Positions 44,344-49,327 of a stretch of 60,113 nucleotides of DNA are shown one piece after another (position 1 is the stretch's first letter; every line of letters starts with the position of its first letter). Made by a program: the position numbers and the translations under genes. Below the pieces are notes generated by a model. The model was not told the DNA's origin and did not search any database. It saw only the letters and a program-made list of their open reading frames with translations. Source of the DNA: Demequina sp. (GTDB lineage: Bacteria; Actinomycetota; Actinomycetes; Actinomycetales; Demequinaceae); assembly GCF_016278775.1 (NCBI RefSeq), contig NZ_JADQBF010000055.1, forward strand, positions 1 through 60,113, read 5' to 3'.

Positions 44344-45207
44344 CTAGCCCTCCTCGCCGCTCGGCTGGACGTCAACGTCCTGCAGGCGGTTGTACTCGAG
44401 GCCGATGGAGCCCGTCTGGCCAGCGTCGCGCAGCGACTGAATGTAGGCGTCGTACTCCTCGCGGGGCACCACTTTCACGTTGAAGAGCATGGCCGAGTGA
44501 TACTCGCCGCACAGCTCAGCACATTTGCCCTGGTAGGTGCCCACTTGCTGCGGAATGAACTGCATATGGGAGGTACGGCCAGGGATCAAGTCCTGCTTGA
44601 CCAGGAACGCAGGGACCCAGAACGAGTGAATGACGTCGCGCGAGTCGAGCTGGATGTCGACCAGCTCATCGACCGGCAGGTACAGGACCGGCAGGGTCTC
44701 TTCGACACCCTCCTCGCCGGTGAGCCTCGCCTGCACGCCCACGCTGTAGACGTCGTCGTCAAGGTAGTTGAAGTCCCAAGCCCACTGCTTGCCGATCGCC
44801 TGAATGCGAACATCCGGCTCGTCCGAGAGGTCCTTGATGGCCGCAACGTCCGTGGCGGTCCACCGGAACAGCACCGCGATCATCAGCAGCGGCACCGCCA
44901 CGTACATGAGCTCGAGCGGCACGTTGGCGCGAGTCTGCATGGGCAGCTTCTCGTCGCCCTTCTTCTTGCGATAGACCGTGACGGCCCACAGGATCAGCGC
45001 CAACGTGATGACGCCGACGACGATGGCGGCGAGCCATGAGTAGTTCCACAGGTCGATGATGCGACCTGTGTGGTTGGTGACGCCGGGTTGACTGGGGAGA
45101 CCATTGGCTTCGGACTGGCCCGCACAGCCCGCAAGCAGGGACGACGCCCCTACGATGAGGGCGGCTGGGCGTAGACGACGAAGCGCTACTGGGGACGAGG
45201 TAGCCAC
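44344..45207 (-). CDS. ctaC: Cytochrome c oxidase subunit II
   Basis: A 287-residue lipoprotein subunit carrying the CuA centre. A signal peptide ends in a lipobox LLAGC (Cys at about residue 27), two membrane helices follow (about 55-80 and 100-118), then the cupredoxin domain with CuA ligands in [12 protein letters not shown] and the upstream His in HSFWVPAF. The GTG start lies 6 bases after TAGTAT on the minus strand, with no ribosome site, so the ctaCDF mRNA is probably leaderless. Confidence 0.94.
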
Positions 45208-45239: not shown

Positions 45240-46376
45240 ATGCAAAGGTCCCGGGTTTACCTCGATTCGGGCGGTTCTGCGCCGCTTTCCGGTCGCGTCG
45301 CCGACGCTTTGCGCGCCGGTTTCGCGGAAGGCTGGGCTGATCCGGCCCGACTGAGCGCCGAATCGCGGCGTGCGCGCGCCCTCGTTGACGGCTCGCGCGA
45401 GGCGATCGCCGACGTGTTGGGCGCCCGCCCAGAGCTGCTGCACTTCACCACCAGCCCTCACGATGCGTTCGCGCGCTGCATCGCGGGCATCCACGCGGCG
45501 AGGCGCGGTCGCCATCGCATCGTCGTGTCCGCCATCGAGCGGGATGCCCTTGCCAACGCCGCCGCGTTCACCGCCCCACACTCGGTCGACACCGTGGCAG
45601 TCGACACGGCAGGGCATGTCAGCATCGAGGGACTCGCCGCGGCCCTCCAGTCAGATGAGGTGGCGCTCGCCGCCGTGCAGCACGCAAATCAGGAACTCGG
45701 CACGGTGCAGCGACTCGAAGACGTCGCTCGCGCTACCCAGGCGGCGGACGTTCCCTTGCTCGTTGACGCGACCTCGAGCATCGGTCACATCGACCCTCCT
45801 GCGTATTGGGACGCGCTCGTGGCGCATCCCGCTGACTGGGGCGGGCCTGCTGGCATTGGCGTGCTGGCCCTTGAGCCGCACACTCGGTGGCTGCAGGCAT
45901 GGCCAGATGGCGACGACTGGGCACCTGGCGGCATCAGCGTGCCCCTGGCTCTCGCGTCGGCCGTGGCCTTGCAGGAACGCGAGGAGGCGCGGCGCGAGCA
46001 GAACGACCGCCTCGCGGCCCTCGTGTACCGCATCCGCGCCACAGCCGCACAGGTGCCTGGCGTGGACGTGCTGGGCGATCCCCACGAGCGCCTTCCCCAC
46101 GTCGTCACGTTCAGTTGCCTGTACGTGGATGGCGAGGTGTTGCTGGGAGAACTCGATCGGCGCGGATTCGCGGTCGGCTCGGGCTCAGCCTGCGTATCAG
46201 GCACGCTCGAGCCGTCGCGGGTGCTCGCCGCCGTTGGCGCACTCACCCACGGCAATGTGCGCGTCGCGCTACACCCCGGAGTCTCTGAAGACGACATCGA
46301 GCGTTTCCTGACGGAACTACCAGACGCGCTCGACGTGGTGCGAAAGCGCATCGGCGCCCCGCACATCGCGTCGTGA
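45240..46376 (+). CDS. Cysteine-desulfurase-like protein lacking the PLP lysine
   Basis: A 378-residue fold-type-I class V aminotransferase-like protein similar to IscS/NifS. The AVQHANQELGTVQ block (N150), VDAT (D176), the GPAGIGVLAL anchor and the active-cysteine loop GSGSACVSGTLEPSRVLAAVG (C318) all align. However, the PLP lysine position, three residues before the GP of GPAG, is D199 (HPADWGGP), the PLP-stacking His is Arg101, and the GGGQE-type loop is reduced to WAPGG. The only lysine in the chain is K369. It is translationally coupled to a TusA gene (GTGA overlap). The ATG at 45240 was chosen over 45210 because a -10-like hexamer lies 6 bases upstream. PLP-dependent desulfurase activity is doubtful. 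Confidence 0.88.
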   Translation: MQRSRVYLDSGGSAPLSGRVADALRAGFAEGWADPARLSAESRRARALVDGSREAIADVLGARPELLHFTTSPHDAFARCIAGIHAARRGRHRIVVSAIERDALANAAAFTAPHSVDTVAVDTAGHVSIEGLAAALQSDEVALAAVQHANQELGTVQRLEDVARATQAADVPLLVDATSSIGHIDPPAYWDALVAHPADWGGPAGIGVLALEPHTRWLQAWPDGDDWAPGGISVPLALASAVALQEREEARREQNDRLAALVYRIRATAAQVPGVDVLGDPHERLPHVVTFSCLYVDGEVLLGELDRRGFAVGSGSACVSGTLEPSRVLAAVGALTHGNVRVALHPGVSEDDIERFLTELPDALDVVRKRIGAPHIAS

Positions 46377-46621
46377 GCGATCAGCCAGCCAGCGCACCAT
46401 CCGTGGTGGATGCCAGAGACACGGCATGCCCCATGCCGATCATCATGCTGGCCAAGGCCGCCAAGGGCCTCGCGGCGGGCACCGAGATCACGGTCCTGGC
46501 CACCGACCTCGCCGCGCGTTACGACGTGCCCGCATGGGCGCGCATGACGGGCAACGACTTTGTGGGGGAAAGCGAAACGGACGGCGGGGCGCTAGCCCTC
46601 ACCGTCCGTTTGCGAAGCTGA
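46373..46621 (+). CDS. TusA-family sulfur carrier protein
   Basis: An 82-residue TusA/SirA-fold protein. The persulfide-accepting cysteine is present in the motif ARDTACPMPIIMLAKAAKGL (CPxP, C19), and the second half has the usual VLATDLAARYDVPAW strand-helix. It starts with a GTG overlapping the stop of the desulfurase-like gene, so the two are synthesised together. In other bacteria TusA takes sulfur from a cysteine desulfurase for tRNA thiolation or other uses. It is convergent with the A-type carrier gene, with 5 bp between the stops. Confidence 0.85.
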   Translation: MSDQPASAPSVVDARDTACPMPIIMLAKAAKGLAAGTEITVLATDLAARYDVPAWARMTGNDFVGESETDGGALALTVRLRS

Positions 46622-46632
46622 TCTGATCAGCT
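46616..46632. repeat. 17-bp palindrome covering both stop codons
   Basis: AGCTGATC-T-GATCAGCT (46616-46632) is a perfect dyad that contains the TGA of the TusA gene and the TGA of the convergent A-type carrier gene. It is too short for a confident terminator. Confidence 0.6.
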
Positions 46633-46980
46633 GAACGAGTCACCACACGCACACGAACTGCCCGCGTTGGGGTTGTCGATCGTGAAGCCCTGCTTCTCGA
46701 TCGTGTCCGCGAAGTCGATCTTCGCACCGTCAAGGTACGGAACCGACATCTTGTCCACGACCACCTGGACGCCGTCATAATCCTTGACAGCGTCGCCGTC
46801 GAGCGTGCGCTCGTCGAAGTAGAGTTGGTAGATCAGGCCGGAGCAGCCGCCAGGCTGCACCGCCAGACGCAAACGAAGGTCGTCGCGACCCTCCTGCGCA
46901 AGGAGGCTCTTGACCTTCGATGTAGCCGCGTCGGTGATGACCACGCCGTGCGCCGAAGTCTCAGTTACGGTGTCTGTCAT
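46627..46980 (-). CDS. A-type iron-sulfur cluster carrier (HesB/IscA/ErpA family)
   Basis: A 117-residue carrier that delivers Fe-S clusters to client proteins. The three conserved cysteines are in GGCSG (about residue 46) and the tail SCACGDSF. Length and position match Rv2204c. AAGGAG lies 8 bases before the ATG. It is convergent with the TusA gene. Whether it is IscA- or ErpA-like cannot be settled from the sequence alone. Confidence 0.92.
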   Translation of the reverse strand: MTDTVTETSAHGVVITDAATSKVKSLLAQEGRDDLRLRLAVQPGGCSGLIYQLYFDERTLDGDAVKDYDGVQVVVDKMSVPYLDGAKIDFADTIEKQGFTIDNPNAGSSCACGDSFS

Positions 46981-48121: not shown

Positions 48122-49327
48122 ATGACGCAGACGTTCCAGGAACCCGAGGCATCGCCAGCGCTGCTCCTGCTGGGGCAACGCACGGACCCCGTGTCCGAGC
48201 GCGGCGTGGACTGTCCAGGAGACCTCCCCGAACCCTCCGACCCCCATTTGGTGGAACGCGCGCGCAAGGCCAAGGAGGCGCTCGGAGACCGGGTATTCAT
48301 CCTTGGCCACCACTACCAGCGCGACGAGGTCATCCAGTTCGCCGACGTGACGGGCGACTCGTTCAAATTGGCTCGCGATGCGGCGGACCGGCCGGATGCC
48401 GAGTTCATCGTGTTCTGCGGAGTGCACTTCATGGCCGAGAGCGCCGACATTCTCACGTCCGACGATCAGGCGGTGATTTTGCCGGACATGGCCGCTGGTT
48501 GCTCGATGGCCGACATGGCTGGCATCAGCCAGGTCGAGGATGCTTGGGCGCAGCTCGACGAGGTGGGCGTCGCGAGCCGCACGGTGCCGATCACCTACAT
48601 GAACTCGACGGCAGCCATCAAGGCCTTCTGTGGCCGACACGAAGGCGCGGTGTGCACCTCCTCTAACGCCGAGGTGGCGCTGCGGTGGGCCTTCGACCAG
48701 GTGGGCGGCATTGACGGCGACGGAAAGGTGCTGTTCATGCCGGACCAGCACTTGGGCCGCAACACGGCGGTGCTGCAACTGGGGCTCAGCCTCGACGATT
48801 GCGTGGTGTGGGACCCGCGCAAGCCGCTGGGAGGAAACACCGCCGAACAGTTGGACGCCGCCCGCGTGATCCTGTGGAAGGGTCACTGCTCCGTGCACGG
48901 CCGATTCCGCAAGGCCAACGTGGACACGCTGCGCGAGAACGTGCCAGACATCAACATCTTGGTGCACCCCGAGTGCACGCACGAGGTGGTCACCAACGCT
49001 GACTACGTGGGCTCCACCGAGTACATCATCAAGGCGCTCGACGCGGCCGAACCGGGAAGCGCCTGGGGAATCGGCACGGAACTGAACCTGGTGCGCCGCC
49101 TCGCGAACGCCCACCCCGACAAGCAGGTGCACTTCCTGGAAGACACGGTGTGTTTCTGCTCCACGATGAACCGCATCGACCTGCCACACCTCGTGTGGAC
49201 GCTCGAATCGCTGTTGGCTGGCGAGGTCCCCAACCGCATCGTCGTCGACAAGACCACCCAAGAGCAGGCGCGGGTCGCGCTCGACCGCATGCTCGCTCTT
49301 CCGGCGGCGCAGCCGGAAAAGGACTGA
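48122..49327 (+). CDS. nadA: Quinolinate synthase A
   Basis: A 401-residue [4Fe-4S] enzyme that condenses iminoaspartate with dihydroxyacetone phosphate in NAD synthesis. The cluster cysteines lie in AAGCSMADMA, HPECTHEV and CFCSTM; ILGHHYQRDEVIQFADVTGD is the family opening. The partners nadB and nadC are not adjacent, unlike the mycobacterial nadABC operon. AACAAT lies 6 bases before the ATG. It needs an Fe-S supply, plausibly linked to the carrier genes 1-3 kb upstream. Confidence 0.94.
   Translation: MTQTFQEPEASPALLLLGQRTDPVSERGVDCPGDLPEPSDPHLVERARKAKEALGDRVFILGHHYQRDEVIQFADVTGDSFKLARDAADRPDAEFIVFCGVHFMAESADILTSDDQAVILPDMAAGCSMADMAGISQVEDAWAQLDEVGVASRTVPITYMNSTAAIKAFCGRHEGAVCTSSNAEVALRWAFDQVGGIDGDGKVLFMPDQHLGRNTAVLQLGLSLDDCVVWDPRKPLGGNTAEQLDAARVILWKGHCSVHGRFRKANVDTLRENVPDINILVHPECTHEVVTNADYVGSTEYIIKALDAAEPGSAWGIGTELNLVRRLANAHPDKQVHFLEDTVCFCSTMNRIDLPHLVWTLESLLAGEVPNRIVVDKTTQEQARVALDRMLALPAAQPEKD

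Follow-up and report, generated by a model that had tools for sequence, protein, structure and literature searches.

Can a protein with the fold and the persulfide cysteine of a cysteine desulfurase still serve the cell once the lysine that holds its pyridoxal phosphate (PLP) cofactor is gone? This question is raised by a gene at positions 45240-46376 of a 60,113-nucleotide stretch of Demequina sp. DNA (contig NZ_JADQBF010000055.1, assembly GCF_016278775.1; hereafter the window), which overlaps a gene for the sulfur carrier TusA. An original prediction, made from the letters of the window alone, had proposed that the product lost PLP desulfurase activity and may relay persulfide sulfur to TusA. 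By comparing it with sequences from its genus, order (Actinomycetales), class (Actinomycetes) and phylum, we conclude that the window protein and its orthologues in the order appear to form a PLP-free pseudo-desulfurase family that descended from a class I cysteine desulfurase. The sequences strongly support a loss of PLP desulfurase activity, and the family probably has a cofactor-free role in sulfur or metal-cofactor handling. Published work is cited below from excerpts of the papers.

Active site of the desulfurase homologue

The reading frame starts with ATG at 45240 and ends at 46376 (378 amino acids); an alternative start (ATG 45210) would give 388 amino acids, with no effect on the conclusions. 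The product has the class V aminotransferase fold of class I desulfurases (Pfam Aminotran_5, 100.4 bits, cut-off 21.5), and an AlphaFold2 model with a mean predicted local distance difference test score (pLDDT) of 89.8 shows the IscS/NFS1 fold. A model made from four rows was discarded (pLDDT 49.6). Moreover, its cysteine sits in GSGSACVSGT, corresponding to the long SSGSACTS-like loop described for class I enzymes (PMC8300815). However, the other class I hallmarks are missing, namely the internal-aldimine lysine, the PLP-stacking His with the phosphate-binding residues, and a curated-model score: no NCBIfam cysteine-desulfurase model reaches its cut-off for this product, the top one being NifS (174.2 vs 530.75 bits; IscS, 107.4 vs 643.2). 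The closest named protein matches are from a Demequina metagenome-assembled genome (87% identity) and D. oxidasica (62%), and viral contigs scanned with this protein alone gave no match. The gene and the codons discussed below are:

45240..46376, + strand: PLP-lysine-less class I cysteine-desulfurase homologue, 378 amino acids (open reading frame, Pfam, residue alignment, AlphaFold2 model)
45540..45542, + strand: codon of Arg101, in the column of the His that stacks on PLP in class I desulfurases (alignment; role, PMC7188994)
45687..45689, + strand: codon of Asn150, whose SspA counterpart binds the carboxylate of the cysteine substrate (alignment; role, PMC7188994)
45765..45767, + strand: codon of Asp176, whose SspA counterpart binds PLP N1 (alignment; role, PMC7188994)
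45834..45836, + strand: codon of Asp199, in the column of the PLP Schiff-base lysine of active enzymes (pairwise and multiple alignment)
46191..46193, + strand: codon of Cys318, the persulfide cysteine (alignment; present in 121/121 lysine-less rows)
46260..46262, + strand: codon of Arg341, whose SspA counterpart binds the carboxylate of the cysteine substrate (alignment; role, PMC7188994)

Residue roles were taken from SspA, in which Lys201 forms the Schiff base, His99 stacks on PLP, Asp175 and Gln178 contact its N1 and ring hydroxyl, Ser71, Ser198 and His200 bind its phosphate, and Asn150 and Arg340 bind the substrate carboxylate (PMC7188994). These residues align, in the same order, to columns 199, 101, 176, 179, 74, 196, 198, 150 and 341 of the window family. 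None of the PLP binders Lys201, His99, Ser71, Ser198, His200 and Gln178 is kept in the window protein, which has H74, R101, H196 and A198 at these contacts, whereas Asn150, Asp175, Cys314 and Arg340 all have counterparts. The IscS-like chain of the original prediction, with Asp199, Arg101, N150, D176, C318 and a lone lysine (K369), was confirmed at every residue.

We then compared column retention between 117 order rows without the lysine, Demequinaceae among them, and 55 class rows that bear it. First, the PLP contacts are largely gone from the lysine-less rows: no row retains Lys 199 or His 198, and retention of Ser 196, His 101 and Thr 74 is 3%, 21% and 32%, respectively, against a median of 91% over the other 118 well-conserved columns (p=1.6e-4). 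Nine non-PLP columns are likewise retained in less than 35% of rows, some of them adjoining PLP columns (73, 102, 178 and 197). Column 179, which is Gln in 45/55 lysine-bearing rows, holds Ala, Ser, Gly or Val in the lysine-less ones. Second, N150, D176, C318 and R341 are retained together in 120 of 121 lysine-less rows, and C318 is present in each of the 121 rows with a residue there; two more rows (G350 and G308) end early. The total of 123 lysine-less rows includes L039-L041, duplicates of G334, G331 and G312, and the 121 rows with C318 represent 118 distinct copies. Third, pairwise and multiple alignments gave the same reading of position 199 in 197/197 rows. A relocated PLP lysine, which the original prediction had named as a possible refutation, was ruled out: no alignment column offers a substitute, the fullest lysine column holds 11/123 lysine-less rows, and 75/123 have no core lysine at all.

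Could some PLP chemistry nevertheless persist, with the cofactor bound non-covalently or the mechanism changed? D176, N150 and R341 are retained, an E. coli IscS K206A variant retains some PLP (PMC9978102), and parts of the site survive in some families even though the lysine is gone: the stacking His 101 in f83, f85, f74 and most f4 rows, and the phosphate-binding Thr 74 in f74, most f83 and most f77 rows. However, the Schiff-base lysine and its adjacent His are missing from 117/117 rows and the phosphate Ser from 97%; in Demequina, His 101 is gone from all rows and Thr 74 nearly always. Furthermore, E. coli IscS is reported to lose desulfurase activity upon K206A, H104Q or Q183E substitution (PMC9978102), and the window protein has a different residue at each of these positions. 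We thus regard residual PLP chemistry as very improbable. The loss of activity that the original prediction had proposed gains support from the missing lysine, the loss of most PLP contacts and these inactive variants.

From the distribution of the surviving residues, erosion of the PLP site looks to have proceeded stepwise. Also, Asp or Glu at 199 accompanies R101 in 84/89 rows and other residues at 101 in 1/34. Since the rows are related, this covariation is a hint at, and not proof of, a salt bridge in an empty pocket.

Lysine is rare throughout these proteins. The 68 order copies outside Demequinaceae contain 0.09% Lys and 9.5% Arg, compared with 2.6% and 3.3% Lys in the neighbouring A-type iron-sulfur (Fe-S) carrier and CtaC, respectively. 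In 20 of the 55 lysine-bearing class copies, the PLP lysine is the only core lysine. Lysine depletion thus seems to predate loss of the catalytic residue, and a dull candidate explanation would be guanine-cytosine pressure on a fast-evolving gene.

Spread of the lysine loss and selection on the gene

The gene was found in 47/47 Demequinaceae genomes. All 44 Demequina genomes have Asp at the lysine column, while the four copies in the three other Demequinaceae genomes divide equally between Asp and Ser. Two copies from the sister genus g200 (L092 and L094) are divergent, with Ser at the lysine column and the cysteine loops GCGCTC and GVGCSC.

In the order sample, 103/396 genomes had a match at E<=1e-45, Demequinaceae included. 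The 68 such genomes outside Demequinaceae were all read, and 68/68 lack the PLP lysine, having Asp (34), Ser (21), Thr (6), Ala (5), Gly (1) or Glu (1) in its place. In the class sample, a match at E<=1e-40 was obtained in 216/394 genomes. Of these, 210 lie outside the order, and from them we read 59 orthologues picked by score and family, not at random; 55 retain the lysine and four do not (Ala, Met, Asp and Ser). All 20 phylum rows that were read retain it. Hence, to the question of conservation raised by the original prediction, the answer is that absence of the lysine is a trait of the order's orthologues and that C318 is invariant. A sequencing error or an isolated oddity, by which the prediction could also have fallen, was ruled out, as the change is common to these orthologues, with Asp in 44/44 Demequina. 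In class genomes outside the order, L226, L227 and L228 (family f114) and L243 (f104) have lost the PLP lysine (Met, Asp, Ser and Ala, respectively) and kept the cysteine and an adjacent tusA; these losses are possibly independent.

In a mixture-model tree of 112 rows, the 53 rows from the order, with Demequinaceae among them, fall into one group (92 in the Shimodaira-Hasegawa-like approximate likelihood ratio test, SH-aLRT); lysine state changes four times in all, and only one of these changes is forced by starred branches. In a 134-row LG+G4 tree, two order subclades are unresolved among class rows. A single lysine loss within the order is plausible, though not shown.

Is such a protein still maintained? 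In 13 disjoint Demequina pairs (six with tusA and seven without), the ratio of nonsynonymous to synonymous substitution rates (dN/dS) ranged from 0.047 to 0.227 (median 0.093), similar to ctaC and the A-type carrier gene in the same genomes. The gene is therefore under purifying selection in Demequina, the genus covered by this comparison, and a pseudogene was ruled out. One might argue that the gene is a decaying remnant persisting by chance of gene order, in line with the repeated loss of tusA (see below) and the 293/396 order genomes without a close match. However, dN/dS lies well below 1 in 13/13 pairs, with or without tusA, C318 persists in 121/121 rows, and the gene in every Demequinaceae genome. 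For Demequina, the selection test has already largely refuted this explanation, which we consider the least probable of all.

TusA and the other sulfur enzymes

If the protein serves sulfur transfer, the adjacent gene is the first partner to consider:

46373..46621, + strand: TusA-family sulfur carrier, 82 amino acids, Cys19 in a CP motif, with a 4-nucleotide overlap with the upstream gene (open reading frame, Pfam, alignment)

This frame has a GTG start, and its product belongs to the TusA family (PF01206, 63.3 bits, cut-off 28.6), with the intact CP cysteine that the original prediction had noted. The cysteine is retained in 140 of 141 adjacent or fused copies; in the TusA beside L092, Asn replaces it. 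We found tusA at 53/55 lysine-bearing class loci (adjacent, fused, or by hidden Markov model (HMM), the latter for one locus), and at 54/68 lysine-less order loci outside Demequinaceae (13 absent, one at a contig edge). At the other Demequina loci, it is present in 19/43, with 23 absent and one at an edge, and all 23 tusA-less copies keep Cys318. In these tusA-less Demequina, the match to the A-type carrier starts 72-212 nucleotides past the aligned end of the desulfurase homologue, leaving no space for tusA.

On the tree, tusA presence changes 12 times, at least nine changes being forced by well-supported branches, and one falls in the lysine-bearing family f88. C318 is nevertheless kept in all 39 tusA-less lysine-less rows (one a duplicate), so the role of the cysteine is independent of an adjacent TusA. 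No TusA domain was found in 8/44 Demequina genomes, one of which is only 50% complete. In the window genome, the sole other TusA domain found lies in a fusion of CoA-disulfide reductase, rhodanese, TusA and DsrE2 (833 amino acids, L247:3488-5989, - strand, contig C24 of the same genome), and many other Demequina have TusA matches within similarly long frames. TusA as an obligatory acceptor was ruled out by its repeated absence. TusA is thus an old partner turned optional, more often so in lysine-less than in lysine-bearing class copies. The proposed relay to TusA is only partly supported: TusA is adjacent in most orthologues with its cysteine intact, but the pairing is not fixed.

Where could sulfur come from? 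The window genome encodes sufD-sufC-sufS-sufU in one cluster, and the original prediction had asked whether a separate SufS exists. It also has a lysine-bearing class I desulfurase immediately upstream of mnmA. With both enzymes present, the usual needs for cysteine desulfurase are covered. This paralogue allows a regulatory role to be considered, in which the window protein would form a heterodimer with an active desulfurase, such as the one beside mnmA, and steer its output or partners. Class I desulfurases are dimers: TusA docks chiefly on one subunit, and the cysteine that it encounters comes from the second (PMC2854127). However, the window protein is only 32% identical to that paralogue, and a purely regulatory role needs neither the cysteine nor the substrate-carboxylate pair conserved. 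Such a heterodimer, like residual PLP chemistry, is less likely, and we judge it rather improbable.

Possible roles of Cys318

The two flanking genes bear on the role of Cys318:

44344..45207, - strand: ctaC, cytochrome oxidase subunit II, divergent neighbour (open reading frame; conserved arrangement)
46627..46980, - strand: A-type Fe-S carrier (Fe-S_biosyn family), convergent neighbour (open reading frame; gene order)

ctaD lies behind ctaC, upstream of the desulfurase homologue. The divergent ctaC is conserved in 67/68 order, 53/55 lysine-bearing class and 43/43 other genus copies, and the A-type carrier, downstream on the opposite strand, in 41/43 other genus and 54/68 order copies. The original prediction had pointed to these neighbours, and their arrangement is indeed conserved.

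Lysine-less IscS proteins have a precedent in archaea. The IscS of Archaeoglobus fulgidus (PDB 4eb5, 4eb7, 4hvk; D199K mutant, 4r5f) naturally has Asp for Lys, is reported to lack desulfurase activity and to provide a cysteine ligand to the IscU cluster; a lysine-less IscS has also been noted in Methanosarcina (PMC7585200). The window protein similarly combines Asp at the PLP-lysine position with a retained cysteine. Unlike it, A. fulgidus IscS still has the stacking His in our alignment, as well as Thr and Ser at the phosphate columns, and was solved together with IscU, for which the window locus has no partner gene. To our knowledge, A. fulgidus IscS has no TusA partner.

By this analogy, C318 could contribute a ligand to an Fe-S (or Cu) centre that is being formed on a partner, with no sulfur moved. 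This is the main rival because such a role was proposed for A. fulgidus IscS, in which Asp likewise replaces Lys (PMC7585200; PDB 4eb5, 4hvk), and the conserved A-type carrier and divergent oxidase subunit II gene would fit it. Nevertheless, no IscU gene lies beside the desulfurase homologue, and the only NifU_N protein found in the window genome is SufU, in the suf cluster on another contig. Moreover, the partner gene, if any, is tusA, and conservation of N150 and R341 would be unneeded unless structural. We consider a metal or cluster ligand unlikely, though less so than a regulatory subunit.

Two further systems help to place the protein. The lysine-bearing desulfurases of the same class are its orthologues by sequence and place (39-50% identity) and share its tusA and divergent ctaC but, unlike it, have the lysine, within a SAHKWGGP-like motif, and almost the full set of PLP contacts. 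E. coli IscS, likewise a partner of TusA, shares the fold and the class I cysteine loop (PMC2854127); unlike the window protein, it binds PLP through Lys206 and generates persulfide itself, using cysteine.

The reading we favour, unproven and held at a little less than even odds, is that the PLP-free descendant takes sulfane sulfur on C318 from elsewhere and passes it on by transpersulfidation. Cysteine cleavage by the protein itself would be lost, and C318 would be charged by the PLP enzymes of the cell (SufS or the desulfurase beside mnmA) or, alternatively, from a small persulfide bound by Asn150 and Arg341. The acceptor of the sulfur might then be TusA in lineages that retain tusA and a different one in those without it, for a client in respiratory-oxidase or Fe-S biogenesis, as the conserved neighbours suggest; in Asp-type families, an Arg101-Asp199 salt bridge may fill the vacant cofactor pocket. 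Two points speak for such a relay: the partner was a sulfur carrier, and a bare scaffold would have no evident use for Asn150 and Arg341. A more specific version, which we find doubtful, is a cofactor-free transpersulfidase whose old cysteine site (Asn150, Arg341 and Asp176) holds a cysteine persulfide or polysulfide from which C318 takes sulfane sulfur without PLP, serving an oxidase or Fe-S-maturation client first via TusA and, in many lineages, without it.

Several points weigh against a persulfide relay. First, tusA is absent beside 23/43 other Demequina and 13/68 other order copies, and together with the eight Demequina genomes in which no TusA domain was found this means that TusA is not the general acceptor. 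Second, C318 could be a metal or cluster ligand instead, and Asn150, Asp176 and Arg341 might be conserved for structure alone. Third, the link to the oxidase is based on gene order alone. Finally, the 293/396 order genomes without a match at E<=1e-45 indicate that many families can do without this role or fill it by other means.

No bacterial lysine-less desulfurase family, nor a pairing of one with TusA, was found described in the open-licence literature searched. The statement in the original prediction that no such description was known thus stands for the TusA pair but not for lysine-less IscS as such. As far as this literature shows, three things are new: a bacterial family that spans an order, a PLP site that is more deeply eroded while the substrate site persists, and an association with TusA that was repeatedly lost.

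Because they match desulfurase families, these proteins can easily be labelled cysteine desulfurases, and their hosts would then be credited, wrongly, with an extra sulfur-mobilising enzyme. Lost PLP contacts set against an invariant cysteine and substrate-carboxylate pair make the family a testable case for a desulfurase fold without cofactor. The archaeal lysine-less IscS also gains a large bacterial parallel with many natural variants, and copies with and without TusA let acceptor and role be told apart.

Beyond the A-type carrier lie a glycerate-kinase-family gene and then nadA. Bacillus subtilis has a dedicated desulfurase for NadA. Here, nadA, which codes for the Fe-S enzyme quinolinate synthase, occupies 48122-49327, downstream of the desulfurase homologue and on its strand, and it is present in the fetched flank of 39/68 order loci.
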